From contig QZKK01000152.1 of NCBI GenBank assembly GCA_003599475.1, positions 1-20,173 on the forward strand: a DNA stretch of 20,173 nucleotides. The letters run 5' to 3'. This DNA comes from Desulfobacteraceae bacterium (lineage in GTDB: Bacteria; Desulfobacterota; Desulfobacteria; Desulfobacterales; SURF-15). The notes below the pieces were generated by a model. That model did not search any database, had not been told where the DNA came from, and saw only the letters and a list, made by a program, of their open reading frames with translations. Shown here piece by piece: positions 1-18,281 of the stretch (its first letter is position 1; each line of letters starts with the position of its first letter). The position numbers were made by a program, and so were the translations under genes.

Positions 1-418
1 CAAGCTCGAGGTCCGTGACCATACGGGTCAAAAGGTCGCTTGACTGGTATCGGGAGAAGAAAGACAGATGCTTTCTCAAAATCGATTCACTCAGCCGCAA
101 TTTAAAATTGCGGAAGATATTCTCCGATGCCCGGGCAATGAGGGAAACCTGAACATACCAGAGACAAGCGCCGGCGATCACCACCCCAAGAAGCAGGAGA
201 CTGTAACGGCCGAGCAGGGTCAGGCTTTTCAATGGGATCGCCCGATCGATGATCAACTGGATGGAATACGGAATCAGAGCCACAAAAAAGCCGCTGATCA
301 GGGCAAAAGCAAATCCTAATATCAACCTTTTCCTTTCATTTAAAACATCGATTGCCAGCAATTTCCAGAACAACCGAAGCGAGTTGAACATGCTTCTTTC
401 GTTTGGACTGTCCGTCAT
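1..418 (-). CDS. ABC exporter, N-terminal part of transmembrane domain (partial)
   Basis: Reading leftward from ATG 418, an open frame of 139 codons runs off the left edge. It begins MTDSPNERSMFNSLRLFWKL and contains a hydrophobic segment (around residues 30-50, ISGFFVALIPYSIQLIIDRA), a second one (around 65-90, YSLLLLGVVIAGACLWYV), and then the stretch FFSRYQSSDLLTRMVTDLE. This layout is typical of the ABC_membrane domain of type I exporters (MsbA/LmrA/peptide exporter class), where a conserved F...G/S-x-L-x-x-R...D segment follows the second helix. The nucleotide-binding domain would lie outside the window. An alternative start is ATG 391; ATG 418 has a GGGG-type ribosome site nearby. The gene is divergent from the lipid megasynthase operon, so export of that operon's product is an attractive but unproven role. 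Substrate cannot be read from this fragment. Confidence 0.75.
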   Translation of the reverse strand, partial: MTDSPNERSMFNSLRLFWKLLAIDVLNERKRLILGFAFALISGFFVALIPYSIQLIIDRAIPLKSLTLLGRYSLLLLGVVIAGACLWYVQVSLIARASENIFRNFKLRLSESILRKHLSFFSRYQSSDLLTRMVTDLEL

Positions 419-732: not shown

Positions 733-2067
733 ATGACCCAACGAAAACATCCCAAGTCCATCGAAAATTCGTCGAGGGTGAAAAAGTATCTCCCGGGAGG
801 AGTTCACTACAATACCCACAGCCCCAAGACCCCCATCGAGAGGGTTATTCCTTTTCATAAAGGAATCGGATCGAGAGTTTGGGATCCGGACGGGAATGAA
901 TACCTGGACTTGTTTTGTAAATTCGGCGCCCTGATCGTCGGTCACCAAAATCTTCGGTACAACGAAGCGTTGAAGGATTGCATCGACCGGGTTTTGGCGG
1001 TCGACCAATGCCATCTGGAGCACGAGGTTTGCGAACGGATCGTGCACCTTATCCCCTGTGCGGAGATGGTGCGCTTCGGGTTAAGTGGAACCGAGAGCAT
1101 CCAGAACGCCCTCCGCCTGGCCCGAGCATATTCGGGGAAACAGAAATTTATCCGGTTTATCGGTCATTATCACGGCAATGCAGACAACATCATGGGAGGT
1201 GCGGTAAAAGACCCGCGATACCCCGCCCCCTTTCCCGGAGTGGGGGATTACGATACGGAAGGCCGGGATCCCGAGATCCTTCAACGACAGTCTTTTTTGA
1301 TCCCCTGGAACGACAGCCGGGTTTTGGAAGAGCTGCTCTCAAACTGCAGTCAAGAAATTGCTGCAGTGATCATGGAGCCGATCGCAATCAATGGCGGAGG
1401 GGTTCTGCCCGAGCCGGGGTATCTCGAAAAAGCGCGGTCGCTTTGCAGCCGATACGGCGTGGTTCTGATTTTCGATGAGGTCATCACCGGCTTCCGGGTC
1501 GGACTGAACGGCGCGCAGGGCCTGTTCGGAGTGGTTCCGGATCTTGCGGTCTTCGGCAAAGCGCTGGCCGGTGGTGCGGTGCCCGTTTCGGCCATTGTAG
1601 GAAAAAAAGAGATCATGAACCTGTATGCGCAGCAGCGGGTGGTGCACATGGGAACTTTCAACGGATATCCCCTGGGGCTTGCCGCAATTCGGGCCACGCT
1701 GCAACTGCTCGCCGAGGATTCGGGGTGTTTTGAACGCATGGGTTCGTTGAATCTGAGGATTGCCGAATGCTTCGTGGAAGCGGCAAAGAATGCCAGCCTG
1801 CCGCTGGTGATCCAGGGAGTACCGAATGCGTTGCTCTTTCATGTCAGAGAAAAGCCCGTAGAGGATATGGTCAATGACCCACCGGATCTTGAAAGAAACG
1901 CTCTGCTCTATCTTTATGCACGCCAATACGGAATCCTTTTTTCCTATATTTCGCGGATGTATCCGAACCTTCTCCTTGCAGAAGACGATGTCGCCTTTTT
2001 CAGGGAACGAATCGGAGAAGCCCTGATTGCCGCAAAAAAAGCCCTTCAACTCCTCGGCAGGGGCTGA
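733..2067 (+). CDS. Class III aminotransferase, glutamate-1-semialdehyde aminomutase-like
   Basis: A 444-residue PLP-dependent fold type I enzyme close in length and motifs to HemL. Visible landmarks: the early motif LPGGVHYN, the phosphate-binding GLSGTES, the FIGHYHGNAD segment, the cofactor-contacting Asp in IFDEVITGFR, and the Schiff-base lysine Lys276 in FGKALAGG. ATG 733 is chosen because homologous sequence begins right after it (MTQRKHPKSIENSSRVKKYLPGG); upstream in-frame codons look non-coding. The ribosome site is weak (GGGGCGGA). It heads an operon with a thioester reductase and two Pfa-like megasynthases, so true tetrapyrrole synthesis is unlikely. By analogy with MxcL of myxochelin biosynthesis, a GSA-aminomutase-like enzyme that aminates an aldehyde made by reductive release, I infer that it converts the released long-chain aldehyde to an amine. 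Amino donor and exact substrate are unknown. Confidence 0.85.
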   Translation: MTQRKHPKSIENSSRVKKYLPGGVHYNTHSPKTPIERVIPFHKGIGSRVWDPDGNEYLDLFCKFGALIVGHQNLRYNEALKDCIDRVLAVDQCHLEHEVCERIVHLIPCAEMVRFGLSGTESIQNALRLARAYSGKQKFIRFIGHYHGNADNIMGGAVKDPRYPAPFPGVGDYDTEGRDPEILQRQSFLIPWNDSRVLEELLSNCSQEIAAVIMEPIAINGGGVLPEPGYLEKARSLCSRYGVVLIFDEVITGFRVGLNGAQGLFGVVPDLAVFGKALAGGAVPVSAIVGKKEIMNLYAQQRVVHMGTFNGYPLGLAAIRATLQLLAEDSGCFERMGSLNLRIAECFVEAAKNASLPLVIQGVPNALLFHVREKPVEDMVNDPPDLERNALLYLYARQYGILFSYISRMYPNLLLAEDDVAFFRERIGEALIAAKKALQLLGRG

Positions 2068-2070
2068 AAA

Positions 2071-2138
2071 GATCAGAAGATGAGAGGATCAGAAGATGAG
2101 AAGATCAGAAAAGTATCCTTATCAACTTCTCATCTTCT
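2071..2138. repeat. Tandem 16-bp repeat with 13-bp inverted complement
   Basis: Units starting GATCAGAAGATGAGA repeat at 2071-2086 and 2087-2102, with a partial third copy at 2103-2113. The segment AGAAGATGAGAAG (2091-2103) is exactly complementary to CTTCTCATCTTCT (2126-2138), giving a 13-bp stem with a 22-nt loop between the aminotransferase and reductase genes. It is followed by a T/C-rich stretch to about 2175 (TTTGTGTCTTTGTGCC type) that looks like dispersed low-complexity intergenic sequence. There is no oligo-U run directly after the stem, so it is not a clear terminator. Confidence 0.7.
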
Positions 2139-2211
2139 TTAACTTCTGCTCTTCTTTGTGTCTTTGTGCCTTCGTGGCGAAACTATGAGAAGCTTTGAAC
2201 TAGCAGGAATC

Positions 2212-2988
2212 ATGGAACCGGAAAAGCAAGTTGCAGTCGTAACCGGAGGTGCGGGAGGCCTGGGACGGGGAATCGTCGAGGAGCTGCTTCAGCAGGGATT
2301 TCACGTTGCAGCCACCGATATCTCACGAGAAGGACTCGCTTGTTTCAAAACCTCCGAGTTTTCGGAAAAACTGAAGTGTTTCGCTCTGGATGTCGGCGAT
2401 TTGGAGAGTGTAAAAAAGGCATCTGCCGAGATCTCCAGGGCATTTCCGCTTCCGGTTACCGTCCTGGTGAACAATGCCGGCCTTTTTTGCCGCCATCCGG
2501 TCACAAAAGCCGACTTTTCAGAGACGGCACAGCACATCCTCCAGACCAATCTGCTGGGTGCGTTTTATTGTACGGAAGTATTCTCGAAGTCGATGATTTC
2601 CGCAAATTTCGGCCGTATCATCAATATCGCCTCGATTGCTGGAATCTACGGCGCAGGGCATGCCTCCGCCTACGCCGCATCCAAGGCCGGATTGATCGCC
2701 GCCTCCAAATCCTGGGCAAGGGAGCTTTCTCCCTTCGGGATCAATGTCAATGTCATTGCCCCCGGAATATTTCAGACTTCGATGACGGAACAGGAAAACC
2801 TTCCCCGCGTCCAGGCGCAGAAGCTCATGCTCCAACAAGTCCCGGTCCGGCGTTTCGGCGATCCTGATGATGTCGGTGAGCTGGTCGTCTTTCTGGCCAC
2901 CTGCAGGACAAATTACATTCAGGGGACGGTGATCGAAATCGATGGAGGAATCCATGTCGCCGGGGTCGAAGGTATCCAGGAGCTGTGA
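2212..2988 (+). CDS. Short-chain dehydrogenase/reductase, FabG-like 3-oxoacyl-ACP reductase
   Basis: A 258-residue classical SDR. It shows the nucleotide-binding glycine motif TGGAGGLGRG near the N-terminus, the NNAG motif (LVNNAG), catalytic Ser141 (NIASIAG), and Tyr154/Lys158 in YAASK, followed by the PG turn (IAPGIFQTSM) and the family C-terminal motif (GTVIEIDGG). ATG 2212 lies just before the first beta strand and has AGGA close upstream; ATG 2185 and GTG 2158 are alternatives, but the latter falls in repetitive sequence. The gene ends 10 nt before the thioester reductase, so the two are probably cotranslated. Likely roles are ketoreduction of a carrier- or CoA-bound 3-oxoacyl intermediate, or reduction of the released aldehyde to an alcohol. 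The context does not decide between these. Confidence 0.85.
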   Translation: MEPEKQVAVVTGGAGGLGRGIVEELLQQGFHVAATDISREGLACFKTSEFSEKLKCFALDVGDLESVKKASAEISRAFPLPVTVLVNNAGLFCRHPVTKADFSETAQHILQTNLLGAFYCTEVFSKSMISANFGRIINIASIAGIYGAGHASAYAASKAGLIAASKSWARELSPFGINVNVIAPGIFQTSMTEQENLPRVQAQKLMLQQVPVRRFGDPDDVGELVVFLATCRTNYIQGTVIEIDGGIHVAGVEGIQEL

Positions 2989-2992
2989 GGAG
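2987..2992 (+). promoter_or_regulatory. Ribosome binding site that decides the thioester reductase start
   Basis: GAGGAG at 2987-2992 overlaps the stop codon of the preceding reductase and lies 6 nt before GTG 2999. The spacing is ideal, which favours GTG 2999 over the in-frame ATGs at 2942 and 2954 inside the upstream gene, and suggests translational coupling. Confidence 0.7.
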
Positions 2993-2998
2993 CTGAAA

Positions 2999-4186
2999 GT
3001 GAACGCGATCGCAGACCGACCAGCCATTCCCGGAAATATCTTCCTCACCGGAGCGACAGGCGTGGTGGGCGGACGGATTCTGATGGAAATCCTCCGCTAT
3101 ACCGGATCGGATTGCCATTGCCTGGTGAGGGCCAAAGACCGAATGCATGCCCGAACGCGCCTTGCCGGCATGTTGAAGACCTATGGAATGCCGGAGCAAG
3201 AGTACCGGACCTGCCAGAAACGCATACATCCGGTTTTGGGGGATATCGCGCTCGAGCGCTTCGGGCTGGATAACGAGACCTACGATTCCCTGGCACACAC
3301 CTCCGGGCTTGTCATCCACATGGCGGCAGACCTCAGCCTGATTTCATCTTATACCAAGCTTTCCGCCGTAAACGTCGAAGGAACCGATCACGTGATCGAT
3401 TTCTGCCTTCGCGGCGGCAGCCTCCTGGCATACGGCTCCACTTTCGGGGTGATCGGGGATAAAGTTTACCAGAAGGATTATGTCTTTTCAGAAGATTCGA
3501 CCGATATCGGGCAGAAATTTCCGGAATCCCATTATCCCAGGACCAAATACGAGGCGGAGCTGAGGATCCGCCGGGCGGGCGCCAAGGGATTGCGCTGGGT
3601 TATCCTGCGTCTCGGAGACATCCTGGGAGACAGCCGAAGTGGTGCATATCCCCTCGATGGCTCCGGCACCATCAATATCTATTACGACATCTTCAAAACG
3701 GTGATAGAGACAGGGATTGCCCCCTATTTTGAAGACCGCTGCTATATCGCCCCGGTGGACTACGCGGCCAGGGCTGCCCTTTTTCTGGCTCTGCATCCGG
3801 ATGCACAGGGATCGACCTTTCATATCGTAAATTCAGAACAGGACTGTTTCTATCGCATCATGAATCTGCTGGTGGAATGCGGATATGCGCTGCGGATCGT
3901 TCCCTGTAAAGAATACAGCGGGCTCTTTGTCAAAAACCGGGTGTGGCTCCGGGGGAAAATCTATCGATCGCTGTTTACCCGCATGATCGCAGGCCTCCCT
4001 TTGCTTCCGGGTCGGGTGGAATCGGCCCGGATCTGTATCCTCCAGGCCGAGCGTCTGCTTGCACCCGCAGGCATCGTTTGTGCTCCCGCCGATTACAACC
4101 TGCTCGCCAGGTATCTAAACTTCTGTATCGAAAACGCCTATCTGCCTTCCCCGGCGAATCAAAGGCCTCTGGCCGAAATCCGATGA
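2999..4186 (+). CDS. Stand-alone thioester reductase (extended SDR, FAR/TR family)
   Basis: A 395-residue protein with an N-terminal Rossmann motif (FLTGATGVVGGRIL, residues ~14-27). LVRAKDRMHARTRL follows, as in the R-domains of NRPS/PKS and fatty acyl reductases. The middle part has GLVIHMAADLSL and NVEGTDHVIDFC (family motif: H-x-A-A followed by NVxGT), and the catalytic Tyr179 and Lys183 lie in HYPRTKYEAE. These features match the NAD(P)H-dependent thioester reductase family (NAD_binding_4). It would reductively release the acyl chain from the carrier protein as an aldehyde, or as an alcohol after a second hydride transfer. Start GTG 2999 is set by a strong ribosome site. It is free-standing rather than fused to a megasynthase, as in HglB-type and zeamine-type systems. 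With the aminotransferase two genes upstream it suggests an aldehyde-to-amine exit route. Confidence 0.85.
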   Translation: MNAIADRPAIPGNIFLTGATGVVGGRILMEILRYTGSDCHCLVRAKDRMHARTRLAGMLKTYGMPEQEYRTCQKRIHPVLGDIALERFGLDNETYDSLAHTSGLVIHMAADLSLISSYTKLSAVNVEGTDHVIDFCLRGGSLLAYGSTFGVIGDKVYQKDYVFSEDSTDIGQKFPESHYPRTKYEAELRIRRAGAKGLRWVILRLGDILGDSRSGAYPLDGSGTINIYYDIFKTVIETGIAPYFEDRCYIAPVDYAARAALFLALHPDAQGSTFHIVNSEQDCFYRIMNLLVECGYALRIVPCKEYSGLFVKNRVWLRGKIYRSLFTRMIAGLPLLPGRVESARICILQAERLLAPAGIVCAPADYNLLARYLNFCIENAYLPSPANQRPLAEIR

Positions 4187-4225
4187 AAACCAGATGGCAT
4201 ATTTGTTGAATAGAAAAATAGCGAA

Positions 4226-7200
4226 ATGAACACGACCGATAAAAGAAAAACCTCTCGAAAGACCGAGCCAATTGCCATCGTGGGTATGGGGGGCATGTTC
4301 CCGGAAGCGAAAAATCTTCAGGAATTCTGGAGTAATATCCTGTCGAAGAAGGACTGCATCCGGGAGCTGCCGGATTCCTTCGACTTCGATGGCGATTTCA
4401 GAAAAGACGATTACTTCGATCCGGACCCGCTCGCCCGGGATAAGACCTATGCCAAAAAAGCGGGCTATCTGCCTGAATTGGAGTTCGACCCGGCGGCATT
4501 CGGCATCCCCCCGAAGGCCATGGAATCGATCAGTCAGGTGCAGCTCCTGGCACTGGTCGCGGCCCGAGACACCCTGCAGGATGCAGGTTTACTCTCAAAC
4601 GGAAGAAACGCCCCTCTGCGCAGCCGGACGGGGGTGATTCTGGGGGTGGCCGGCTTTGGAGACACCTCTTTTCAACTGGCCGCCCGGCTGGATTACCCGA
4701 ACTGGCGCCGTGTGCTGGAAAATTCCGGAATCCCCGAACCGAAGGCCTCTGAAATCGTCGAAAAGCTGAGGGCGCTCTATATCGAATGGAACGAGGACTG
4801 CTTTCCCGGGTTTTTAGGCAATGTGGTGGCAGGCCGGATCGCCAACCGGTTCGACCTGGGGGGAATCAACTGCACGGTGGATGCCGCATGCGCCAGCAGT
4901 CTGGGAGCGATCCAAATGGCGATCGGTCAGCTTTCGGAGGGAAACTGCGATGCGGTTCTTGCCGGAGGCGTTCAGGCGGAAAACGACGTGATGTCTTTTA
5001 TGTGCTTCAGCAAGACCCGGGCATTGTCGGCAAAGGGGATCTGCCGGCCCTACGACGCGGATTCCGACGGGATGCTTCTCGGTGCGGGCGTCGGGATGAT
5101 GGTCCTGAAGCGTCTGAAGGATGCGGAAAGAGACGCAGACAGAATCTATGCGGTCATCCGGGGAATCGGTGCTGCAAGCGACGGGCGGGCAAACAGCATC
5201 TACAATCCCGATGTGAAGGGACAGCTCTCCGCACTCCGCCGCTGCTATGAAAAAGCCGGACTCACGCCGGGCGATATCCAGCTCCTCGAAGGCCACGGCA
5301 CCGGGACCCTTGCAGGAGACGCCTGCGAGATCTTGTCGATGATGGAGTTTTTCAAGGATGCCCCTCCACGCTCCATCGCCCTGGGAAGTGTGAAGTCGCA
5401 GATCGGACATCTCCGGGCGGCCGCCGGCGCAGCCGGAATGCTCAAGGTGGCCCTGGCGCTCTATCATCAGATGCTCCCCCCCACCCTGCACATCGAAAAT
5501 CCGAATCCCGCAATCGCGGCAGCGGATGCGCCGTTTTATCTCATTACCGAGCCAAAATCCTGGGCATGCCCCGAAGGAAAGTCCCCCCGGAGAGGGGCGG
5601 TCAGCTCTTTCGGCTTCGGCGGGGCGAATTTTCATACCGTTCTGGAAGAATACTCCGCCTGCAACGCGCGCTCTCCCCGGGTGGAAGATGCCCCGGTGCA
5701 AAGCGCTTCCCCCTGTCAACCGATGAAAAACGAGCTACCCAAGATGACCATCAACGGGTTCCGTTATCTGAATCCATCCACCAGAGCCCGCAGAGATCGG
5801 GCATTGCAAAAGGAAGCTTCCGAGTCGTCACAGAAGGAAACCATGAAAAGACCCGTTCCACCTCCATCCGACACCGAAACGCACCCGGTCATGACCGCTG
5901 CCGAGCCGGACGATGCGATTGCCGGCCGGCTCAAATGGCAGGAGCGTCTGGATCGGCTGCAGCAGCAGTTTCATGAAAACCAGGCCGGCTACATCGATCT
6001 GCTCTCCGGGTACATGGAAAAGCAGTATGCCATGATCGAAAAAATTCCGCCCGGGCCGCATCTGGACAAGATTCTCGACAGTTTTACCGCAGCCCTCCAG
6101 CTTCTGGATAAAAACCAGCAGCGATACCACGACAACCACGATCGTTATCTGGAAAACCAGCTCAAGCTGTTAAACGCCTTGAGCCGTTATCCGGACGGGC
6201 GGCATCTGTCCCCCGATATCAGAATTCGCCCGGAAAGCCCCGGTACGAAGAAAGCCGCTTCGGAATCTCTTCTGCCGGAGCCCCCTCCCGCGATCCCTGA
6301 GAGCCAGCGCATTCCTTTGCGTATCCCCCCGGAGGAGATGCCTGACGACTCGAATCCCTATTCTGCAATCCCCCGGACTTCTCCGGTTCCCTCATCCGAC
6401 GGTTCGAAAATCACGGCCGCTGCTCCTGTCGATGTAAACCAAATCATAGAGAAACTGCGGGACATCGTCAGCGACAAGACCGGATACCCAAAGGAAGTGC
6501 TCGAAATCGACATGGACCTTGAAGCGGACATGGGAGTCGATTCGATCAAACGGCTCGAGATTCTCGGGGCCATGAAGGAAGCCTTCCCCGAGATGCCCAT
6601 GGAGCTTGAAGCCGTGGGCGAGCTGCGTACGCTCCGCGAAATCGCATCTTTTCTGGAGCAATACTTCCAAGGCGAAGCCTCTTCCCGAATTCCTGAAAAT
6701 GGACCGCCCGCAGCCGCAGTTCCGGCAGGAGAAAAACCGGGCCCTACCGATTCCGCCGGAGTCTCCCGCATCGTCGGCCGTCTTCGGGCCCTGATTCTGG
6801 AAAAAAACGGATACCCTCCGGAGGCGCTCACCGCAGAAACCGATCTCGATGATGTCGGTCTGGATGTCGTTCACTGGCTGGATATCATCTCGGCCATGGA
6901 GGAGGAATTCCCCGCTCTCAAGGTGGACGTAAACGAGCTTGAGCATCTCCATACCCTGGGAGAAATCGAACGGCATCTCTGCGAGCATCTTGCCGCAGAG
7001 CCTGTCGGTCGGATTCAACCGGTTTCCTTCTCTAAAGACGCCCCTCCTGCAGCTTCCCGGCAGGAGACGAGCGGTTCAGAGGGGCTGAAGAAAATCGATC
7101 CGGTGCCGCAGACCGCATCATCCAAAGCTTTTTCATTATCCCGGAAAGTGGTGCTGAGTACTGCCGGCAATGCGGCCGAAGCTACCCCAACACCAAAGAA

Positions 7201-9736
7201 GCAAAGCCGATCCATCCAGAAAAAAAATCTGGCTGAGCCGGACCGGATCCTTTCCACCTTTGGGGATACTCCTCTTTGGGTGGTCATGGACGAGGGCAGT
7301 TCGGTCGGAAGGAAGCTGGCTGGAGAAATCGAAAAACAGGGGGGCAAAACGGTGGTTCTGCGCTTCCCCGAAGCGCTTGTCGATTACGGCGGTCAAGAGA
7401 TGCATACCAAAAACCGGATCTCTCTTGCCGGCTGCAGCGAGAAGCAATGCAATGCGGCCCTGGAAGGAATCCGGAAAAAGTACGGTCCGATATCCGGTTT
7501 TATTTATATTCATCCCTTCGACGATTCGGCGGCTTCCTCCTTTACCGATTTGTTCCGGAAGGAAGAAAGCATGGCCATCCGGATCCCTTTCTGGATGGCC
7601 AAGCATCTGCAGCAGTCCATGGCCGGCAAGAACGAGTGCATCCGCCGTTCTTTCATTGCGGTTTCCCGCATGGACGGAGCGCTCGGGGTAAGCGGGCGGA
7701 AGCCTTTTACCATCTTCGGCGGATGCCTCTCCGGTCTGATCCGGTCTCTTGCCCGGGAGTGGCCGGATTCCTTTTGCCGGTTTCTGGACATCGCCCCCGA
7801 AGTACCCGCCGAAACTGCGGCAGAAATGATTGTAAAAGAGCTTTCCGATCCACGTGCGGATCTTTTCGAGACCGGCTATGACGCAGAAGGGAATCGTTGG
7901 ACGCTCGAGGCCGTGGAAACCGAAACGCTTCCGGAAAAACCAGACTTTCTGCCGGATTCGGAGACGGTCTTTCTGGTCAGCGGAGGTGCTCGGGGAATCA
8001 CCGCCGAATGCGTGACCGCCATGGCGGAGGCATTCCATTCCAGGTTTGTCCTGCTGGGCCGCACGGAAGCGGCGGAAGACGAACCGGAATGGGCCCGGAC
8101 ATGTCTAGAGGAAGCGGGTCTTAAAGAAAGGATCCTCTCCCGGTTGAAGGATCAAAAAAAGCGAGCGACGCCGGTCGAGGTGGAAAAGCTTCTTCGCCCC
8201 GTTCTTGCCGGACGCGAAATCCGGCGCACGCTGCAAAGAATCGAGCAAAACGGGGGGGAGGCGATCTATTTTCCTGTGGATGTCACCGATAAGGAGAGCC
8301 TGCACCGGGTGCTTGTGCGGGCGCGGGAAAGATTCGGAGAGATCGACATGCTCATCCACGGGGCGGGAAACCTGGCCGATAAGATGATCGAAAAGAAAAC
8401 GGCCCAGGACTTCGACCGGGTCTTCGAATCCAAGGTCCTGGGGCTGAAAAATCTACTGGAGTGCCTCGATTCAGATCGGTTGCGCGCCATCGTGCTCTTT
8501 TCTTCGGTGGTCTCTGTTTCGGGAAACGCGGGACAAACCGACTACGCCATGGCCAATGCCCTGCTCGATAAATTCGCCCGATGCTGCCGTTTGCTGGCTC
8601 CGGAAAAAATGGTCACCGCTGTCAACTGGGGTCCCTGGGAGCATGGAATGGTCACCCCTTCGCTGCGAAAGGTCTACCGGGAAAAGGGTTTCGAGCTGAT
8701 TCCGGCCGCTGCGGGAAGCCGGATGTGCGTATCGCTTTTCCAGGAGAAAGTCGAACCGCAGACGATCGCCTGGGGCAAACTCCCGGCCCCTCCTCTCTTC
8801 GAGCGGGAGGAAATTCATGCCACCCGGGTCCAGCGAAGCCTGCTTCTTGAGGCCAACCCATTTCTTTACGATCATGTCATCGACTCCCGTCCGGTCCTGC
8901 CCGCGACCTGCGCCGCCCAGTGGATGATCGAAACCTGCGAAACGCTGCTTCCGGGCCATCGGTTCCGCGAGCTCAAGAAATTTAAAGTCCTGAAGGGGAT
9001 CGTATTCGAGGAAACCGGACCGAAAGACTATATCGTGGGGATCGAACCGGCAGGAATCTCAATCGACCCGCAGAGAAAACTGGCAGTCAAGATCTTCAGC
9101 AGAAACGGTAAACAGCCCGTACATCATTACAGCGCAGAAATCGTCCTTTCGGACCCTGAAATCGCGGAGGCCATGCCGATCTATGCAGAAATGGACATCA
9201 CCCGCGACGGAAGGCCCCCTGAAGAATACTATGCCGGGGTTCCCCTATTCCACGGCAAAAGCTTCCAGGGGGTGCGGCAGGTGTGCAATATCGGCCCCCG
9301 CCACATCACCGTATCCGGCTGCCTGCCTCCGATCGATGACGCCAACCAGGGGCAGTTCAAGGCCGGCTCCTTCAATCCATACATCGCAGATGTTCATCTG
9401 CAAAGCATTCTCCTCTGGTCCGGAGATTTCCTGAAGGCAGGCTGCCTGCCGGCCTCGATCGGCCGGATCGAGCAATTCCATCCGATCGGCTTCGGAGAAG
9501 AGTTCTATGTCTCGACCCGGATTCAATCCCAGGCCGAATATCGTCTGCGGGTGGATATGACCGTCCATAACGAGGAGGGGAAAATCCATATGCGGTGGAC
9601 CGATGTGTGCTTGACAGTCTCCGGGCGTCTCCATGAGCAGTTTCGAAGAGCCGGAAGTCGGAGGTCGGAAATCGGAAATCGGAGGACAGAGGGAAGAGCA
9701 AGCACCAAATCACAAGCATCAAATTTCAAACAATAA
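4226..9736 (+). CDS. PfaA-like iterative PKS / PUFA-type synthase subunit: KS-ACP-psiACP-KR-DH
   Basis: An 1836-residue megasynthase. Residues ~14-480 form a ketosynthase with Cys222 (VDAACASS), His357 (EGHGTGT) and His395 (SQIGH), closest in style to PfaA KS. Residues ~480-735 are a Pro/Ser-rich linker with a helical Gln/Tyr-rich part (~565-655) where PfaA proteins carry a malonyltransferase; no GHSxG motif is present. ACP1 (~735-815) has Ser773 in DMGVDSIKR, the Pfa-type carrier signature. The second carrier (~845-925) aligns well but has Val881 in place of Ser (VGLDVVHW). A structural KR half (~1000-1240) and a catalytic KR half follow, with SGGARGIT (~1250), Ser1427, Tyr1440 and Asn1444. 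The C-terminal DH is a double hotdog with His1550 (HVIDSRPVLP) and Asp1722 (DVHLQ). ATG 4226 is the first possible start after an in-frame stop at 4211; its ribosome site is weak. The last ~28 residues come from repeat DNA. Confidence 0.9.
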   Translation: MNTTDKRKTSRKTEPIAIVGMGGMFPEAKNLQEFWSNILSKKDCIRELPDSFDFDGDFRKDDYFDPDPLARDKTYAKKAGYLPELEFDPAAFGIPPKAMESISQVQLLALVAARDTLQDAGLLSNGRNAPLRSRTGVILGVAGFGDTSFQLAARLDYPNWRRVLENSGIPEPKASEIVEKLRALYIEWNEDCFPGFLGNVVAGRIANRFDLGGINCTVDAACASSLGAIQMAIGQLSEGNCDAVLAGGVQAENDVMSFMCFSKTRALSAKGICRPYDADSDGMLLGAGVGMMVLKRLKDAERDADRIYAVIRGIGAASDGRANSIYNPDVKGQLSALRRCYEKAGLTPGDIQLLEGHGTGTLAGDACEILSMMEFFKDAPPRSIALGSVKSQIGHLRAAAGAAGMLKVALALYHQMLPPTLHIENPNPAIAAADAPFYLITEPKSWACPEGKSPRRGAVSSFGFGGANFHTVLEEYSACNARSPRVEDAPVQSASPCQPMKNELPKMTINGFRYLNPSTRARRDRALQKEASESSQKETMKRPVPPPSDTETHPVMTAAEPDDAIAGRLKWQERLDRLQQQFHENQAGYIDLLSGYMEKQYAMIEKIPPGPHLDKILDSFTAALQLLDKNQQRYHDNHDRYLENQLKLLNALSRYPDGRHLSPDIRIRPESPGTKKAASESLLPEPPPAIPESQRIPLRIPPEEMPDDSNPYSAIPRTSPVPSSDGSKITAAAPVDVNQIIEKLRDIVSDKTGYPKEVLEIDMDLEADMGVDSIKRLEILGAMKEAFPEMPMELEAVGELRTLREIASFLEQYFQGEASSRIPENGPPAAAVPAGEKPGPTDSAGVSRIVGRLRALILEKNGYPPEALTAETDLDDVGLDVVHWLDIISAMEEEFPALKVDVNELEHLHTLGEIERHLCEHLAAEPVGRIQPVSFSKDAPPAASRQETSGSEGLKKIDPVPQTASSKAFSLSRKVVLSTAGNAAEATPTPKKQSRSIQKKNLAEPDRILSTFGDTPLWVVMDEGSSVGRKLAGEIEKQGGKTVVLRFPEALVDYGGQEMHTKNRISLAGCSEKQCNAALEGIRKKYGPISGFIYIHPFDDSAASSFTDLFRKEESMAIRIPFWMAKHLQQSMAGKNECIRRSFIAVSRMDGALGVSGRKPFTIFGGCLSGLIRSLAREWPDSFCRFLDIAPEVPAETAAEMIVKELSDPRADLFETGYDAEGNRWTLEAVETETLPEKPDFLPDSETVFLVSGGARGITAECVTAMAEAFHSRFVLLGRTEAAEDEPEWARTCLEEAGLKERILSRLKDQKKRATPVEVEKLLRPVLAGREIRRTLQRIEQNGGEAIYFPVDVTDKESLHRVLVRARERFGEIDMLIHGAGNLADKMIEKKTAQDFDRVFESKVLGLKNLLECLDSDRLRAIVLFSSVVSVSGNAGQTDYAMANALLDKFARCCRLLAPEKMVTAVNWGPWEHGMVTPSLRKVYREKGFELIPAAAGSRMCVSLFQEKVEPQTIAWGKLPAPPLFEREEIHATRVQRSLLLEANPFLYDHVIDSRPVLPATCAAQWMIETCETLLPGHRFRELKKFKVLKGIVFEETGPKDYIVGIEPAGISIDPQRKLAVKIFSRNGKQPVHHYSAEIVLSDPEIAEAMPIYAEMDITRDGRPPEEYYAGVPLFHGKSFQGVRQVCNIGPRHITVSGCLPPIDDANQGQFKAGSFNPYIADVHLQSILLWSGDFLKAGCLPASIGRIEQFHPIGFGEEFYVSTRIQSQAEYRLRVDMTVHNEEGKIHMRWTDVCLTVSGRLHEQFRRAGSRRSEIGNRRTEGRASTKSQASNFKQ
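6050..6190 (+). other. Helical Gln/Tyr-rich linker in place of an acyltransferase
   Basis: Within the first megasynthase, residues ~562-655 contain recurring helices with Q/H-x-x-Y spacing (for example FHENQAGYIDLL, YMEKQYAMIEK, QQRYHDNHDRYLENQLKLL). Such Gln/Tyr-rich helices are seen in linkers before carrier domains of other PUFA-like and glycolipid synthases. Here they take the space where an acyltransferase would be expected. They could be a docking or dimerisation element; this is inference from composition. Confidence 0.4.
9653..9687. repeat. Heptamer tandem repeat, five copies, inside the 3' end of a gene
   Basis: Five consecutive 7-bp units follow the pattern GGARRTC: GGAAGTC, GGAGGTC, GGAAATC, GGAAATC, GGAGGAC. 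Because 7 is not a multiple of 3, the translated tail cycles through frames (GSRRSEIGNRRT). The array lies immediately after the last conserved part of the DH domain and continues into AT-rich repetitive DNA. It resembles short tandem heptamer repeats found in intergenic DNA of several bacterial groups. Confidence 0.8.
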
Positions 9737-9893
9737 GATAAATATTTAAATGAAGAAAAATTCAAACAATCCAAATCCTCCTGCGGAAGTATTTCTTTGA
9801 TTATTGAATATTGAGAACTGGATATTGTTTGGAATTTGTTGCTTGATGCTTGGAATTTATTCTTAACGATTTCAACGTGCAACGATTTCAACG
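9714..9893. repeat. AT-rich interrupted inverted repeat and 13-bp direct repeat between the two megasynthases
   Basis: AAGCATCAA (9714-9722) pairs with TTGATGCTT (9843-9851), and CAAACAAT (9727-9734) pairs with ATTGTTTG (9824-9831), forming the arms of an imperfect inverted repeat around an AT-rich centre. The left arm overlaps the end of the first megasynthase gene, whose stop codon (9734-9736) lies inside the repeat. To the right, AACGATTTCAACG occurs at 9865-9877 and again at 9881-9893, the second copy touching the ATG at 9894. The motif style (AATTTGGTGCTTGGAATTT type) is familiar from dispersed intergenic repeats. No gene or ribosome site was found in this 157-nt gap. Confidence 0.65.
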
Positions 9894-12800
9894 ATGACTA
9901 AAATCGCCATCATCGGTATGGGGTGTCTGTTTCCGGAAGCGGACAGCCCGGATGCGTTTTATAACCTTCTGATGGAGGGTCGCGACGTTACAACGCCTTT
10001 AACCGAAAAGGAGCTTGGCGTCGATCCGGACTTCTATTTCCACCCGCACCCGGATGTCCCGGACAAGATCGGCTACCACAAAAACGGGTATATCCGCAAT
10101 TTCCGATTCAATCCCCGGGGATATCATCTGGAGCCTTCGGCGCTGGAAAGTCTGGACCGGATCTGTCAGTGGCCGATTTACGCCGCCGGGCAGGCGATTG
10201 AAGACAGCGGCTACCGAAACCGACATGAAGAGCTCGACCGGTGCGGCATCATCCTGGGGAACCCGACCTTTCCGACGCTTTCGTCCAAACAGATTTTTTC
10301 CCGGATCCATCATATCGCTCTGGAGCCGCATCTGCAAAAGCTGTTGCACCGGAACGATTTTTCTCTGGCCGAACCGCGGCCCGAAAAGTTGTCCGAGGAA
10401 AACGCTTGGACGGCCGGGTTGCCTGCAAGAATCGCCGCACAGGCGCTCGGTCTTCGAGGCCCCTGTTATGAGGTGGATGCCGCCTGCGCCACCTCGATCC
10501 ATGTGGTCCAATTGGCCGCTTATCATCTTCTGAGCGGGCATGCCGACATGATGATCGCAGGCGCGGTATGCTGCCCCGATTACCTGTACGTGATAAATGG
10601 TTTCAATGTGCTTCGGGCTTTTCCTCCGGCTCAGGCGCAGTCCCTCCCCTTTGACCGGTCCTCTCAGGGGATGAAGATCGGAGAAGGCACGGGGTTTCTC
10701 GTTTTGAAGCGTCTCATGGATGCCCTGCGCGACGGCGACCGCATCCATGCCGTTGTGGAGAGCATCGGGCTTTCAAACGACGGCAGGGGAAAGCATATCC
10801 TGGTGCCTTCCGGCCCGGGCCAGATTCTGGCATTGGAGAGAGCCTACAGGGGAAGGATCCGGCAGGTCGATTACATCGAGTGCCATGCGACCGGAACCCC
10901 GCTGGGAGATGAAACCGAGCTTTCCACCCTAGAACGATTCTTCGCAGATACCCCTTTTCTTCCGCTGTTGGGCGGAAACAAAGCCAATATCGGCCATACG
11001 CTGACGGTGGCCGCCATGGCCGGCATCCTCAAGGTGGTCATCAGCATGAGTCGGGGAATCATACCGGCCACGATCGGAGCGGAAGACCCGATCCGTTTGC
11101 CGGGTGCAAGGTTTACGGAGAAACAGATCGTACGGGAGCCTTGCGAATGGCCCTGCCGGGGGGGCGGGAAAATCGCGGGAATCGATGCATTCGGTTTTGG
11201 AGGGGTCAACGCCCACATGGTTCTGACCGGTCCGCCGGAAAAAAACGCTCAAAGCCGGTCGGTTCCCTCGATGCAACCGCTTGAAAGCGGGATGACTGCC
11301 ATCGTGGGAATGCACTGCCGCTGGGGGAATCTCGAAGGCCTGGATGCACTCAACGACGCCATCTACCACGGCCGGCAAAATTTTCAACCTCTGCGCTCCG
11401 AAAGATGGATCGGGGGAGAGCGGAATCGAACGGTCCTGGAACAAGAGTTCGGGCTCCGGGAAGGCCAGGCCCCTCCGGGCAGCTATTGTGACGCATTCGA
11501 TCTTGACTGTCTTCGATTCAAGGTCCCTCCCCAGGAAGCAAACGCGCAGCTCTTCAACCATCTTTTGATGCTGCACGTTGCCGACCGTGCCTTGCAGGAT
11601 GCCGGCTTCTCCATGACAGAGGCCGGCCGGAACATCGCCGTGGTCATCGGTACGAAAATGGATTGGGCCAATCACCGCCGCCTGACTCGTCTAGAGCTCC
11701 CCCTGTACCTGCGGCGGGGATTGCGCCGGCACGGGATCGATCTTTCACCCGATCAAATGGTTTCATTGGAATCGGCCGCCAAAGGCGCCATTTGTCCAGA
11801 CCCTACGCTGGAGGGGACCACGGGAGGTATCGGCAATCTGGCCGCAAGCCGTATTTCGGCGGCATGGAATTTTACCGGGCCTTCGCTGCTGATTTCTTCA
11901 CAGGAAAATTCCGCCTACAAAGCACTGCAGGTGGCCCGCTTCCTGCTCACCTTCGATCCGGAAATCGAAGCCGTGCTTCTCGGCGCCATCGATCTTTCGG
12001 GCGGCTGGGAGCATGTACTGTGGCACAGCCGCCGGCATAAAGCCGCCGGTAAGAATCAGGGTTTCGCATTCGACGCGGCAAGCTCCGGCTGGAGCATCGG
12101 AGAGGGAGCCGGAGCGCTCGTCCTGAAAAGAGAAAGGGATTGTAATGAAAACCGGATCTATGCCCGAATCCGGGCGCTGAAAATCGTGCAGCAGAGCGGC
12201 CCCGCCGGGTTGGAGCTTGCCCCGGAGCCTGAATCCGTCTCCTGCGCATGCACCCGGGCTTTTCAGGAAGCCGGGATATCGCCCGGGCAAATCGGGTATA
12301 TCGAAGCCAACGCCGGCGGAATCGAACCGGAGGACCGGGCCGAACTTATCGGGCTTTCTCGCGCTTACCGTCAAGAGCCGGAGGAATCCGGCCGGACGAT
12401 CGGGTCGGTCAAGGCAAACATCGGCCACACCTTCACCGCCTCCGGAGCCGCCGCTCTGATCAAAGCCGCCCTTTGCCTCTACCATGAATATCTCCCCGGA
12501 ATCCCGGGCCTGAGCGGACCGAAATACCCGGAGCTCGATCCGAAAAATGCTTTCCATACCCTCGGGAAGTCCCGTTTGTGGCCGGGTCCGGCCCGCATGG
12601 CTGCAGTCAACGGAATCGGTCTGGACGGCTCTTATGTGCATGTCATCCTGGAGGAGCCGACCCGAGAACAGCGGAAGATCGAAAAGGCGGCATCCCCGGC
12701 GATAAGGCCGGACGAAGAGAACAACCGGTTGCGCAAGCGCCTGGTAAACGGCTGGATGCCGATGGGGGAGTTTATCCTGCAGGAAACGCATCGAAAACAT

Positions 12801-14237
12801 TTTCCTTCTCCCCCGGCTTCGGCAGCAAAGAGTCCGAAAACCGCGTGCCCGATCGACCGGTATATCGAAAGGGCCCTGCGGCGCAATGCCGAAACGCAGC
12901 TCACCTACTCCAAGATCAAGCAGGTATTCCAGGACGATCTGCGCTCGATTTTGGAGCGGGAGCCATGGGAATCCACAGCTTTACAAACGAGCATGATGAG
13001 AAGAGAAGGAGAGTCCCGCCGCGGGGAATCGAACGCGAAAACAGAGCTTGTCTGGGACACCCCCCAGATCCTCGAGATGACAGAAGGAAGGCTCTCGGCG
13101 GTCCTCGGTCCGGAGTACCAGGATATCGACCGCTTTCCGGTCCGCGCCCGTTTGCCGCTTCCTCCTTTCCAGTTCGTAAGCAGAGTGACCCGTATGAGTG
13201 CCATGCCGGGGCGATTAGAGCCGTGCAGCATCGAGTGGGAGTACGATATCCCCCGCGACGCCTGGTACATTACAGACGGCAGAGTTCCGGGAATCGTCTC
13301 TTTCGAATCCTCTCACGGCCTCATTCTGGCGCTCAGCTACATCGGCTGCGATCGTCTATTTGGAGGAAAATGGCGTTACCGTGCCCTGGACAGCACCGTC
13401 ACCTTCTTCGGGTCCGCTCCGCTGCCCGGAGATACCCTCTCAGCAAAAGCGAACATCCGTTCCTTCCTGAGAAGCGGTAGGAATCTATTGATTTTTTATG
13501 ATTTCCACTGCCGTGTCGACCGCCGGGAGATTTTCAAGATCGAGGCCAATGCCGGCTTCTTCTCACCGCAGGATCAGGAGAAAGTCCGCGGGTGGCCGGT
13601 TCGTGAAAAGGAAGCCGGTGAAGAAGTCCCCGGTCTGGTGTTTTCACCGTTATTGCACTGTTTGAAAACATCGTTTCAGGACCAGGAGATCGATGCCCTG
13701 CAGGAGGGTGATTTCGCTTCCTGCTTCGGCTCGGAATATTTCCGGCAAAACCCGGGGCTGCTGGGTGTGCCTCGGTTGAAAATGCTGGATCGAGTGGTTT
13801 CCGTCGATCGTTTGGGAGGTCGATGGGGGCTTGGAGAAATCGTCGGTGAAAAAGATATCACCCCCGATCACTGGGTTTTTGCGGCGCATTTCAAAAACGA
13901 CCCGGTGCTTCCGGGTACCATGCTGGTGGAAGGGTGCAACCAGGTTCTTTTCTTCTATATGTTCTACCTGGGTCTGCATACCCGATTTACCCGGGTGCGG
14001 GTCGATTTTTTGAAAGGGATCACCTCGACTGTGAAATTCCGAGAGGAGATCAAACCCCAATTCATCCGGATCCGATTCCGCCTCCAAATCCAGCAGATTG
14101 CCGCCACCCCGGAAACATTTGCAGTCGCCTCGGTGGAAATTTTTCACGGGGCCAAGGCCATCGGAATCTGCGATCGTCTCGGGGTTCGCTTTCATGAGGG
14201 GTTTCTGCAAAATGGCAAAGGGAATCAAAGGTTCTGA
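9894..14237 (+). CDS. PfaC-like synthase subunit: KS-CLF-DH (FabA-like)
   Basis: A 1447-residue multidomain protein. Residues ~2-450 are a complete ketosynthase with Cys198 (VDAACATS), His331 (ECHATGTPLGD) and His368 (NIGHT). Residues ~467-925 are a KS-like chain length factor: the nucleophile position is Glu671 (ISSQENS) and the first His is replaced by Asn (EANAGG), so it cannot condense alone. A charged helical linker (~930-1045) leads to a double hotdog dehydratase (~1048-1440). Its second half carries the FabA-type motif HFKNDPVLPG with His1332 and an acidic residue in the following helix (LVEGCNQ); the first half (FESSHGL) looks non-catalytic, as in PfaC. Typical PfaC proteins have two such DH units, here only one. 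It should pair with the upstream subunit to set chain length and to dehydrate or isomerise 3-hydroxyacyl intermediates. ATG 9894 abuts a direct repeat and lacks a clear ribosome site. Confidence 0.9.
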   Translation: MTKIAIIGMGCLFPEADSPDAFYNLLMEGRDVTTPLTEKELGVDPDFYFHPHPDVPDKIGYHKNGYIRNFRFNPRGYHLEPSALESLDRICQWPIYAAGQAIEDSGYRNRHEELDRCGIILGNPTFPTLSSKQIFSRIHHIALEPHLQKLLHRNDFSLAEPRPEKLSEENAWTAGLPARIAAQALGLRGPCYEVDAACATSIHVVQLAAYHLLSGHADMMIAGAVCCPDYLYVINGFNVLRAFPPAQAQSLPFDRSSQGMKIGEGTGFLVLKRLMDALRDGDRIHAVVESIGLSNDGRGKHILVPSGPGQILALERAYRGRIRQVDYIECHATGTPLGDETELSTLERFFADTPFLPLLGGNKANIGHTLTVAAMAGILKVVISMSRGIIPATIGAEDPIRLPGARFTEKQIVREPCEWPCRGGGKIAGIDAFGFGGVNAHMVLTGPPEKNAQSRSVPSMQPLESGMTAIVGMHCRWGNLEGLDALNDAIYHGRQNFQPLRSERWIGGERNRTVLEQEFGLREGQAPPGSYCDAFDLDCLRFKVPPQEANAQLFNHLLMLHVADRALQDAGFSMTEAGRNIAVVIGTKMDWANHRRLTRLELPLYLRRGLRRHGIDLSPDQMVSLESAAKGAICPDPTLEGTTGGIGNLAASRISAAWNFTGPSLLISSQENSAYKALQVARFLLTFDPEIEAVLLGAIDLSGGWEHVLWHSRRHKAAGKNQGFAFDAASSGWSIGEGAGALVLKRERDCNENRIYARIRALKIVQQSGPAGLELAPEPESVSCACTRAFQEAGISPGQIGYIEANAGGIEPEDRAELIGLSRAYRQEPEESGRTIGSVKANIGHTFTASGAAALIKAALCLYHEYLPGIPGLSGPKYPELDPKNAFHTLGKSRLWPGPARMAAVNGIGLDGSYVHVILEEPTREQRKIEKAASPAIRPDEENNRLRKRLVNGWMPMGEFILQETHRKHFPSPPASAAKSPKTACPIDRYIERALRRNAETQLTYSKIKQVFQDDLRSILEREPWESTALQTSMMRREGESRRGESNAKTELVWDTPQILEMTEGRLSAVLGPEYQDIDRFPVRARLPLPPFQFVSRVTRMSAMPGRLEPCSIEWEYDIPRDAWYITDGRVPGIVSFESSHGLILALSYIGCDRLFGGKWRYRALDSTVTFFGSAPLPGDTLSAKANIRSFLRSGRNLLIFYDFHCRVDRREIFKIEANAGFFSPQDQEKVRGWPVREKEAGEEVPGLVFSPLLHCLKTSFQDQEIDALQEGDFASCFGSEYFRQNPGLLGVPRLKMLDRVVSVDRLGGRWGLGEIVGEKDITPDHWVFAAHFKNDPVLPGTMLVEGCNQVLFFYMFYLGLHTRFTRVRVDFLKGITSTVKFREEIKPQFIRIRFRLQIQQIAATPETFAVASVEIFHGAKAIGICDRLGVRFHEGFLQNGKGNQRF

Positions 14238-14476: not shown

Positions 14477-14506
14477 GGGAAAAGGGGATTTCCCTATCTT
14501 TTTTTT
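14477..14506 (+). terminator. Candidate Rho-independent terminator of the biosynthetic operon
   Basis: GGGAAA (14477-14482) pairs with TTTCCC (14489-14494) around an AGGGGA loop. TATC and eight consecutive T residues follow on the plus strand. The stem is short, so strength is uncertain. It overlaps the stop codon of the convergent glycosyltransferase gene (14494-14496). Confidence 0.5.
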
Positions 14507-15786
14507 CGGATATTGATCGCCAGTTCCTCGATCAGCTCCACTGCACGCCCAACGCCATCCTCCCTCTCTACCCTCTTCCTCACTTCCCTTGCCCGCTCAC
14601 GCATGGCAGGCGAGCCCAGCACCTCCCGAACCCGCCCTGCAAGCTTCTTCGCCGTAGCGGCACGGAAATTTAGCGGTTTGGGTGCCAAACCACGGCGATG
14701 CAGTTTTTCTGCCCATAAGAATTGATCAGAGATATGGGGGACAACGACAGAGGGAACACCGGCGATGAGAACAGACTGAGTCGTACCTGCGCCGCCATGA
14801 TGAACGACAGCGGCACAGCGGGGAAAAACGGCGGCGTGGGGGGAGGATGGGACCCATATGACATCTGCAGAATGCGGAAGTCCGCCTGCCTTTGCAGCAT
14901 CAATCTGGATAATGGCCCGACAGCCCAGATCTCGCACCGTATCCAGCAAAACGACCGCCTCACTCCGCAGGAAATGATTGCTGTTCGCCGTCATGCTGCC
15001 GAATCCGAAGTATACCGGAGGAGGGCCCGCTGAGAGGAAGACCTCCAACTCCGTCGGAATCGGCCGTAGGCTGTCGTATGGCATCGATAAAAATCCACAC
15101 ACCTGATGTCGTGGGTCCCAGTCAGGTGGACGTGTGAAAAGCTCCTTGCTGACTGCCGCGAGATTTAAAACGCGGGATGACCACGCCTCCCCGATCATGT
15201 CGCGAAGGGGCGACAACCGATGCTCGGCCCGGAGACGATTAACCGAGGCAAGAAACAGCTTGTCGAAAATAAGTTTGTTAAGCCGCCAGAAAAGAGGGGT
15301 GAAGAGAGGCCCCAGTTTTGGGAAGCTTATCGGGGAGAAATGGTGCGACGGGATCAAACCAAAATTATAGAGGTTGACGCTTACCTCCGGCACCGCCCTC
15401 ATCTCTGCAGCCATCCGAAGCGGATGGTGATAATTGTGGCCAATGACCAGATCGCATTCTTGTGTGAGCCGTTGCGCTTCATCCAGCATTGCCGGAATGA
15501 AAGGGTCGAACAAATGCTTGATCATGATTCGTTCCTGGGCGATGAAATTCTGTGCCAGCAGGAGACGCATTCCAATGCGGTCGCACTCCGTCGGATCAGC
15601 GATCACCGGTGTGGCAACCGGAGTAATGCGCAGTCCGATACGGCTTCCCAGCCCGCAGTAGTCTTTCGGATCCAAATCAGTTACAACAGCCTCGACCTCG
15701 TGGCCCGCCCGCTGCAACCCCAGGCCGAGAGCCAGAAACGGCCGTATATCCCCTTCGCTGCCCCAGGTTTGAATACCAATCCGCAC
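14494..15786 (-). CDS. Family 1 (UGT/MGT-like) glycosyltransferase
   Basis: A 430-residue GT-B protein. The N-terminus VRIGIQTWGSEGDIRPF contains the G-S-x-G-D-x-x-P motif of sterol glucosyltransferase-like and antibiotic/macrolide glycosyltransferases. The C-terminal donor-binding domain has PVYFGFGSM and the signature VVHHGGAGTTQSVL around residue 328, followed by GVPSVVVPHISDQ. These point to transfer of a sugar from a nucleotide sugar to a lipid or polyketide acceptor. I chose GTG 15786 because GGAGGT lies 4 nt upstream and conserved sequence starts there; an in-frame ATG at 15831 would add 15 poorly conserved residues. It is convergent with the megasynthase operon and therefore separately transcribed. 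Glycosylation of the cluster product is plausible (compare the glycosyltransferase step in heterocyst glycolipid synthesis) but unproven. Confidence 0.85.
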   Translation of the reverse strand: MRIGIQTWGSEGDIRPFLALGLGLQRAGHEVEAVVTDLDPKDYCGLGSRIGLRITPVATPVIADPTECDRIGMRLLLAQNFIAQERIMIKHLFDPFIPAMLDEAQRLTQECDLVIGHNYHHPLRMAAEMRAVPEVSVNLYNFGLIPSHHFSPISFPKLGPLFTPLFWRLNKLIFDKLFLASVNRLRAEHRLSPLRDMIGEAWSSRVLNLAAVSKELFTRPPDWDPRHQVCGFLSMPYDSLRPIPTELEVFLSAGPPPVYFGFGSMTANSNHFLRSEAVVLLDTVRDLGCRAIIQIDAAKAGGLPHSADVIWVPSSPHAAVFPRCAAVVHHGGAGTTQSVLIAGVPSVVVPHISDQFLWAEKLHRRGLAPKPLNFRAATAKKLAGRVREVLGSPAMRERAREVRKRVEREDGVGRAVELIEELAINIRKKR

Positions 15787-15864
15787 CGCTACCTCCGAAT
15801 TACGAAAATAAAAAAACAACCGCTCTCTCAAATCGTCATGGAATCCAGAGAGGAGCGCTTCTAA

Positions 15865-18197: not shown

Positions 18198-18222
18198 GGG
18201 ATTCCAATCCTTCCTGGAAAAA

Positions 18223-18252: not shown

Positions 18253-18281
18253 CTATCAGCAACATGGAAGAGAGGAAACCC

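Follow-up and report, generated by a model that had tools for sequence, protein, structure and literature searches.

An acyltransferase-less Pfa-type synthase operon with a thioester reductase and an aminotransferase on a Desulfobacteraceae contig, a likely reduced relative of zeamine/fabclavine-type polyamine synthases

The window studied here, the 20,173 nucleotides at positions 1 to 20,173 of contig QZKK01000152.1 (GenBank assembly GCA_003599475.1) from a Desulfobacteraceae bacterium, carries on its forward strand a five-gene block (positions 733-14237). Open reading frame (ORF) calling and Pfam/NCBIfam matches identify the genes, in this order, as an aminotransferase (AMT), a FabG-like short-chain dehydrogenase/reductase (SDR), a stand-alone thioester reductase (TR), a PfaA-like subunit, and a PfaC-like subunit. 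These five parts, located together, form the core of a zeamine/fabclavine-type polyamine synthase, and we consider it likely, with a probability of roughly 80%, that the block encodes a reduced relative and third lineage of these "Pfa plus amination" synthases, working by iterative extension, TR release, and amination. The combination of parts is already known from zmn10-14 and fclC-G, as are a free AMT, a FabA-like dehydratase (DH), and a polyamine cluster devoid of nonribosomal peptide synthetase (NRPS) genes; what is new is the architecture lacking an acyltransferase (AT) and an enoyl reductase (ER), together with a pseudo-acyl carrier protein (pseudo-ACP). The genes and domains of the block are listed below.

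733..2067, forward strand: AMT, a free-standing class III pyridoxal phosphate (PLP) aminotransferase (Aminotran_3, E 7.8e-56), counterpart of the AMT domain of Zmn12/FclE
2158..2988, forward strand: FabG-like SDR (best NCBIfam matches of FabG type), counterpart of Zmn13/FclF
2942..4186, forward strand: stand-alone TR (TIGR01746, E 1.8e-58), counterpart of Zmn14/FclG
4226..9736, forward strand: PfaA-like subunit without AT, composed of ketosynthase (KS), linker, ACP, pseudo-ACP, ketoreductase (KR), and DH (TIGR02813 PfaA, 1151.8 bits, cut-off 1010.1), counterpart of Zmn10/FclC
4265..5497, forward strand: KS domain of PfaA, DAACASS (Pfam, motif, tree)
5690..6451, forward strand: KS-ACP linker at the place of the missing AT (similarity to zeamine/fabclavine PfaA linkers and cyanobacterial ACP proteins)
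6449..6655, forward strand: ACP1 with serine, GVDSIK (Pfam, alignment)
6767..6985, forward strand: pseudo-ACP2, serine replaced (alignment)
7967..8641, forward strand: KR domain (Pfam)
8822..9637, forward strand: polyketide synthase (PKS)-type DH domain (Pfam, motif)
9894..14237, forward strand: PfaC-like subunit, composed of KS, chain-length factor (CLF), and DH (two ketoacyl-synthase units and a FabA domain, E 4.9e-34), counterpart of Zmn11/FclD
9897..11225, forward strand: KS domain of PfaC (Pfam, motif)
11280..12653, forward strand: CLF with Glu671 at the cysteine position (alignment)
13770..14162, forward strand: FabA-like dehydratase/isomerase, HFKNDPVLPG (Pfam, motif)

The intergenic distances of 90, -47, 39, and 157 bp and the shared strand fit a single operon. 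The same genes are found again among database proteins at 56 to 91% identity, so the locus is neither a chance arrangement nor an assembly artifact. The initial annotation, which had been made from the sequence letters, described a Pfa-type core joined to a TR, a FabG-like SDR, and an aldehyde-type AMT, and the ORFs and profile matches bear this out. Its statement that the operon matches no nameable system was too strong, since zmn10-14 and fclC-G comprise the same five parts, and Xenorhabdus bovienii has a published cluster that is devoted to polyamines alone and has no functional NRPS/PKS genes (PMC9113149). The FabA-like DH, offered there as distinctive, is common to Zmn11 and FclD.

Both KS domains, in PfaA and in PfaC, have intact Cys/His/His triads, the AMT contains the PLP lysine and an SGTE motif, and the TR contains the S-Y-K residues; we take these residues, together with the FabA-type histidine, to be catalytic. 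The AMT scores 268.2 bits against the hemL profile with its cut-off of 527.3 and lies outside the HemL group on the AMT tree, so the assignment as a housekeeping HemL was rejected. The TR reaches 198.5 bits, under the TIGR01746 cut-off of 213.35, and has two possible starts, ATG 2942 or GTG 2999, the latter as in P0006. Compared with the counterparts in Calothrix, X. bovienii, and Dickeya, the respective identities are 62, 56, and 54% for the AMT; 52, 49, and 48% for the SDR; 44, 40, and 41% for the TR; 55, 53, and 53% for the PfaA KS; and 45, 39, and 40% for PfaC, the cyanobacterial protein being the closest of the three genomes in every case.

The PfaA-like subunit has, at the place of the missing AT, a linker of about 250 residues, which matches all four zeamine/fabclavine PfaA proteins examined (E 1e-24 to 2e-21) and the separate ACP protein in 6/6 cyanobacterial loci (E 6e-21 to 4e-17). 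Among 114 AT-bearing PfaA-like proteins a linker match below 1e-10 occurs in two (P0332 and P0349), which thus carry a polyamine-type linker, and weaker matches, down to about 4e-5, also occur. With this shared KS-ACP linker, the PfaA of the window looks like the family architecture minus the AT. ACP1 keeps the DSIK motif, and ACP2 has a valine at the serine position. A profile built on ACP2 picked up the ordinary ACP alone when run against the four PfaAs of zeamine/fabclavine type and against three ACP proteins from cyanobacteria, and it gave no significant match in two KR-DH proteins. The PKS-type DH motif reads HVIDS in the window versus HxIDG in three full relatives. In the PfaC-like subunit, the glutamate in place of the CLF cysteine, which was reported for the CLF of Zmn11 (PMC3547906), occurs in 10/10 rows compared; these include heterocyst glycolipid (Hgl) rows and rows resembling polyunsaturated fatty acid (PUFA) synthases, so the residue is not diagnostic.

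The absence of AT and PfaD-type ER was established with family profiles, built from six cyanobacterial ATs and from seven NMO/ER domains of the clusters, on six-frame open stretches of at least 25 residues. No AT was found in the window (best E 0.24; the PfaA frame itself 0.33), the Dickeya PfaA, which lies outside the profile, serving as control with 7e-124. No PfaD-type ER was found either (best E 2.5); here the control, the Dickeya ER-AMT with 2e-287, is itself in the profile and hence not independent. A Pfam scan of nine window ORFs gave no other ER type, and no other search was aimed at those types. The 11 window ORFs scanned contain no domain of an NRPS/PKS arm or a condensation partner, within the scope set by the contig ends. 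The claim that AT, ER, and NRPS are lacking therefore holds within these searches. Two features of the zeamine/fabclavine core are accordingly missing. An AT in the PfaA subunit is absent from the window and from the four relatives that reach the KS, and the PfaD-like ER that such clusters encode, in most cases as a fusion with the AMT, has no equivalent beside the free-standing AMT of the window.

Among the described systems closest to the window is Zmn10-14 of Serratia plymuthica and Dickeya, which shares with the window the PfaA-like subunit, a PfaC-like subunit with one FabA-like DH, the AMT, the FabG-like SDR, and the TR, besides the similar KS-ACP linker, the CLF glutamate, and the lack of PfaB. 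The differences are that the zeamine PfaA has an AT and no pseudo-ACP2 that could be found, the AMT is fused to an ER (Zmn12), the order is PfaA-PfaC-AMT-SDR-TR, and a carbon-nitrogen hydrolase and NRPS/PKS genes follow downstream. The fabclavine genes likewise differ by an AT in FclC, the ER-AMT fusion FclE, and the nitrilase FclH, whereas the deoxy-polyamine cluster of X. bovienii (fclC-H) resembles the window in having polyamine genes without working NRPS/PKS partners, and its FclC ends, like the PfaA of the window, in a PKS-type DH. In X. bovienii, only the polyamine and transport genes are present, the NRPS/PKS genes being missing or truncated, and free polyamines are made; X. szentirmaii cannot form the polyamine without fclCDEFG, expression of fclCDEFGH yields polyamines in Escherichia coli, and the PKS-type DH of FclC controls late dehydration (all described in PMC9113149).

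Six cyanobacterial clusters (L001-L006; Komarekiella, Nostoc, Calothrix, and Scytonema) have the order AMT-SDR-TR-PfaA parts-PfaC and a free-standing AMT. The gene order of the window thus recurs, as the initial annotation suggested might be looked for, but with genes inserted and with PfaA split into separate KS-AT, linker-ACP, and KR-DH genes. Further differences are a PfaD-like ER gene before the AMT and an additional gene of 374 to 398 codons after the TR. This gene (for example, L001:11241-12437) and the genes after PfaC (L132:16696-17856 and L133:16321-17499) are conserved and have no Pfam match, and none of their proteins matched anything in the window. No NRPS was found beyond the cyanobacterial PfaC among the ORFs scanned (8/9 in L132 and 7/15 in L133).

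Gene neighborhoods were read in the first 28 of 80 loci, themselves taken from 172 genome-contig relatives obtained in a TR alignment search. An earlier genome-contig scan with the TR alone gave no match, and the second used a single peptide pattern that is absent from the TRs of the window and P0007, so near relatives may have been missed. AMT, SDR, and TR stand beside Pfa genes in 16/28 loci, namely, the six cyanobacteria, three Xenorhabdus, Dickeya oryzae, Serratia plymuthica, three Pseudoalteromonas, and two Rhizobiaceae. The number is 17 if L011 is counted, where PfaC and the AMT were seen and the TR was not, the ORF caller having missed genes there; the other 11 loci have no such set. 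The AMT is unfused to an ER in the window and in the cyanobacterial and two Rhizobiaceae loci, of which the latter two groups possess an ER gene. Gene sizes and order of L010 and L023 closely match the zmn10-15 table of PMC3547906, save for the PfaC of the Serratia plymuthica locus L023, which appears as 1,335 residues (1826-5833) followed by a 94-residue ORF (5851-6135), compared to the 1,439 residues given for Zmn11.

The trees, all unrooted, support the same grouping. In the PfaA KS tree (39 rows), the 14 window-clade, cyanobacterial, and zeamine/fabclavine rows lie on one side of a 100/100 branch, and 25 PUFA-like, HglE, and other AT-bearing PfaA rows lie on the other (row G001_C41_KS is protein P0286). 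In the KS-CLF tree (48 rows), 15 long PfaC and HglC rows are separated at 100/100, and the window clade, itself at 100/100, joins the cyanobacterial clade at 95/74. This tree uses 48 of 78 rows, 30 (18 unlabeled and 12 labeled) being left out for speed or long branches; a quick 76-row tree also placed the window with the cyanobacteria (SH-aLRT 89, not starred). In the AMT tree (43 rows, with the window twice), which came with a long-branch warning, the window, cyanobacterial, and zeamine/fabclavine AMTs unite at 100/100 apart from 11 HemL rows, in agreement with bit scores of 487 to 592 for cluster AMTs versus at most 210 for HemL and with the earlier expectation that the AMT is no housekeeping enzyme. 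The HemL rows represent 11 of 13 loci (in L086 and L092 other frames were taken or no match was obtained), and seven AMT loci were omitted as repeats of cluster AMTs on the same contigs, L097 by equal ORF length and neighbors. As for the labels, an AMT-TR neighborhood was seen for only three of the cyanobacterial KS-CLF rows (P0132, P0136, and P0143), several others being labeled by similarity; zeamine/fabclavine rows from the protein database are labeled by genus name, "PUFA-like" and "long PfaC" rows by database name and length, and Hgl rows by architecture, in L135 also by an adjoining TR.

KS and CLF thus fall outside the PUFA-like and heterocyst glycolipid groups, a check that the initial annotation had called for. 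A PUFA (pfa) synthase was rejected on this placement and on the AT and PfaD not found in the window, and a heterocyst glycolipid synthase on the same trees and on the DH of the window PfaC, which HglC lacks. The comparison with heterocyst glycolipids holds insofar as HglE/HglC/HetM combine a Pfa-like KS-CLF with a nearby TR, but HglE and HglC are not the nearest kin; HglC is a KS-CLF-AT protein, no AMT was seen, and each of the two KS trees separates these proteins from the window by the 100/100 branch. Myxochelin synthesis, named in the same comparison, differs from the window in its NRPS-bound TR and the lack of a Pfa core. It is similar in that MxcG/MxcL combine TR release with amination of the aldehyde (PMC3547906).

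The window is not alone in its reduced form. Its nearest PfaC relatives, P0126-P0131, are 56 to 91% identical, and its nearest TR relatives, P0007-P0015, 56 to 76%; agreeing sizes suggest that TR, PfaA, and PfaC stand together on three other contigs (36,916, 20,940, and 13,113 bp). Among the best 120 of 7,844 PfaA-like proteins, window included, the AT profile matched 114. The six exceptions are the window, P0246-P0249, and P0252, a fragment from the ACP onward that is uninformative on the AT, so that AT absence applies to the window and P0246-P0249; P0249 shows a weak match to the AT profile (9.3 bits, E 0.0023) and has no PKS-type DH. All six sequences cover both ACPs, and in 6/6 the first ACP keeps DSIK and the second has V, I, or L instead of serine. 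From these comparisons, the window and the six database PfaC relatives appear to form a third lineage, with the AT-less PfaA and the serine-less second ACP as new features.

Other searches with the TR extended the picture little. A large TR group (P0017-P0042), 42 to 44% identical to the window TR and with one member named Chthoniobacterales, is a possible further lineage. In genome samples of three phyla, the TR matched 1/297, 0/240, and 0/246 genomes at E<=1e-40, the single match being 29% identical, with no known positive as control. A plasmid search gave 159 records, all below 60% identity, and a viral contig scan gave three loci at 24 to 25%, which were not used.

For zeamine, it has been proposed that reduction is replaced by transamination in chosen rounds, and that release by the TR gives an aldehyde, the substrate for amination by the AMT of Zmn12 (PMC3547906). 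By analogy, malonyl would be loaded on ACP1 of the window by a trans-acting AT, perhaps the housekeeping FabD, and the chain would be extended iteratively by the PfaA KS and the PfaC KS-CLF pair. Per round, the beta-keto group would have one of two fates: reduction by the KR, the DH, and the FabA-like dehydratase/isomerase (a saturated chain would further require an ER in trans), or transamination by the AMT as proposed for Zmn12/FclE. Release by the TR would then yield an aldehyde, whose conversion to a terminal primary amine would again fall to the AMT, and the SDR, standing in the place of FclF, could act elsewhere in the cycle. Since no NRPS partner lies on the contig, the end product would be a free or glycosylated long-chain amine or polyamine without peptide conjugation, and the synthase would probably borrow enzymes from ordinary fatty acid synthesis to make it. 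We infer every chemical step and the product, and the parts differ in strength: amination at the chain end is quite probable, saturation by a putative trans ER is likely, and the chances of internal amination are about even. The window works like the polyamine synthases, but it is not filed as a plain member, because two features, AT and ER, are missing.

Several points weigh against this placement. Loss of both AT and ER may mean a different chemistry; the sister lineages differ among trees (93/59 for window plus zeamine, 95/74 for window plus cyanobacteria, and 88/67 for the window outside both); and a tailoring step, as the glycosyltransferase downstream of PfaC suggests, is not described for zeamine/fabclavine. 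We also know of no product for either the window clade or the cyanobacterial clade, and none of the open-license papers listed treats, judging by title and opening of the abstract, a comparable Pfa cluster without an AT or a product of the cyanobacterial clusters. A survey of PUFA-PKS-NRPS triple hybrids does not, in the sections available, treat NRPS-free AMT-TR clusters as a class (PMC13291983), and the words aminotransferase and thioester reductase are absent from the main text of the listing of Pfa cluster types A to T (PMC3098273).

A simpler product is possible, although we would not bet on it. The AMT may act on the TR-released aldehyde only, and the Pfa core may make a polyunsaturated chain, giving the long-chain unsaturated primary amine that the initial annotation predicted. 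The PfaD-type ER not found in the window and the FabA-like dehydratase/isomerase, as in PUFA synthases, would fit this, as would the MxcL-type aldehyde amination used for comparison in PMC3547906. PUFA clusters themselves, however, have an ER (PMC3098273), an ER missing from the operon may still be present elsewhere in the cell, and the AMT groups in its tree with enzymes proposed to perform repeated internal amination (PMC3547906 and PMC9113149). The predicted amine thus stands as one option, and homology favors a chain that may also bear internal amines. Bolder, and put forward tentatively, is the idea that a naturally AT-less, ER-less Pfa synthase with a conserved serine-less ACP relies on the fatty acid enzymes of the cell to make unseen, possibly glycosylated and possibly unsaturated, long-chain amino lipids, being ancestral or parallel to the zeamine antibiotics.

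The gene that directly follows PfaC, in convergent orientation, is a possible tailoring gene, its association being suggestive only.

14494..15831, reverse strand: glycosyltransferase of UGT type (UGT/EryCIII-like)

It raises the rather unlikely possibility of a glycolipid pathway, in which the adjoining UGT would glycosylate a long-chain amine and the product would serve in the envelope, not as a secreted antibiotic. In 4/6 cyanobacterial genomes, the contig with the cluster also carries a UGT homologue, at most about 19 kb away, together with ABC-transporter-like ORFs. In Calothrix this homologue is one gene past PfaC, and in the other three genomes it is located upstream of the ER gene, at about 7, 7.5, and 19 kb. 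Komarekiella (G001) has a more distant member of the UGT family some 6 kb past PfaC, and Komarekiella delphini-convector has a like UGT on another contig. The window UGT, on the other hand, is on the opposite strand and only 27 to 29% identical to the cyanobacterial ones, Calothrix has three better-scoring UGTs on other contigs, and only one of six proteobacterial genomes with zeamine-type clusters has a match, on another contig.

Decay of the pathway as the cause of AT and ER loss is improbable: two missing domains, the serine-less ACP, the altered DH motif of the window, and P0249, which also lacks the PKS-type DH, would agree with it, but the four AT-less relatives that reach the KS retain the KS cysteine and the ACP1 serine, three of the four the DH motif, the pseudo-ACP2 is conserved in 6/6, and long open frames are maintained at 56 to 91% identity. 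A PUFA or heterocyst glycolipid synthase with unrelated neighbors has next to no likelihood, as the above-cut-off TIGR02813 match stands against the 100/100 separation in the KS and KS-CLF trees, the lack of a DH in HglC, and AMT-SDR-TR beside homologous Pfa genes in the 16 loci.

The remainder of the window holds three further features. The N terminus of an ABC exporter transmembrane domain (1-418, reverse strand), truncated by the contig end and oriented divergently to the AMT, did not match the exporter that adjoins the Calothrix cluster (21 bits, E 0.022). A GatZ/KbaZ-like protein (16854-18347, reverse strand; TIGR02810, 515.3 bits, under the cut-off of 568.8) has about 60 extra N-terminal residues and is 43 to 49% identical to homologues in samples of four phyla (2/198, 2/151, 1/149, and 7/149 genomes, E<=1e-80), so that it points to no particular taxon. 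A fragment of a phage-integrase N-terminal domain (19805-20173, forward strand) lies at the contig end.

A reduced relative of the polyamine synthases in this bacterium would extend the range of Pfa synthases that make amines beyond the proteobacterial antibiotics, to three lineages or more, and the PfaA KS, the linker-ACP, the KR-DH, PfaC, the AMT, the SDR, and the TR persist in all three. If an iterative Pfa synthase works with AT and ER supplied in trans, long-chain amines could be obtained from a simple set of five genes, which would also allow a direct test of terminal-only versus internal amination by the AMT.

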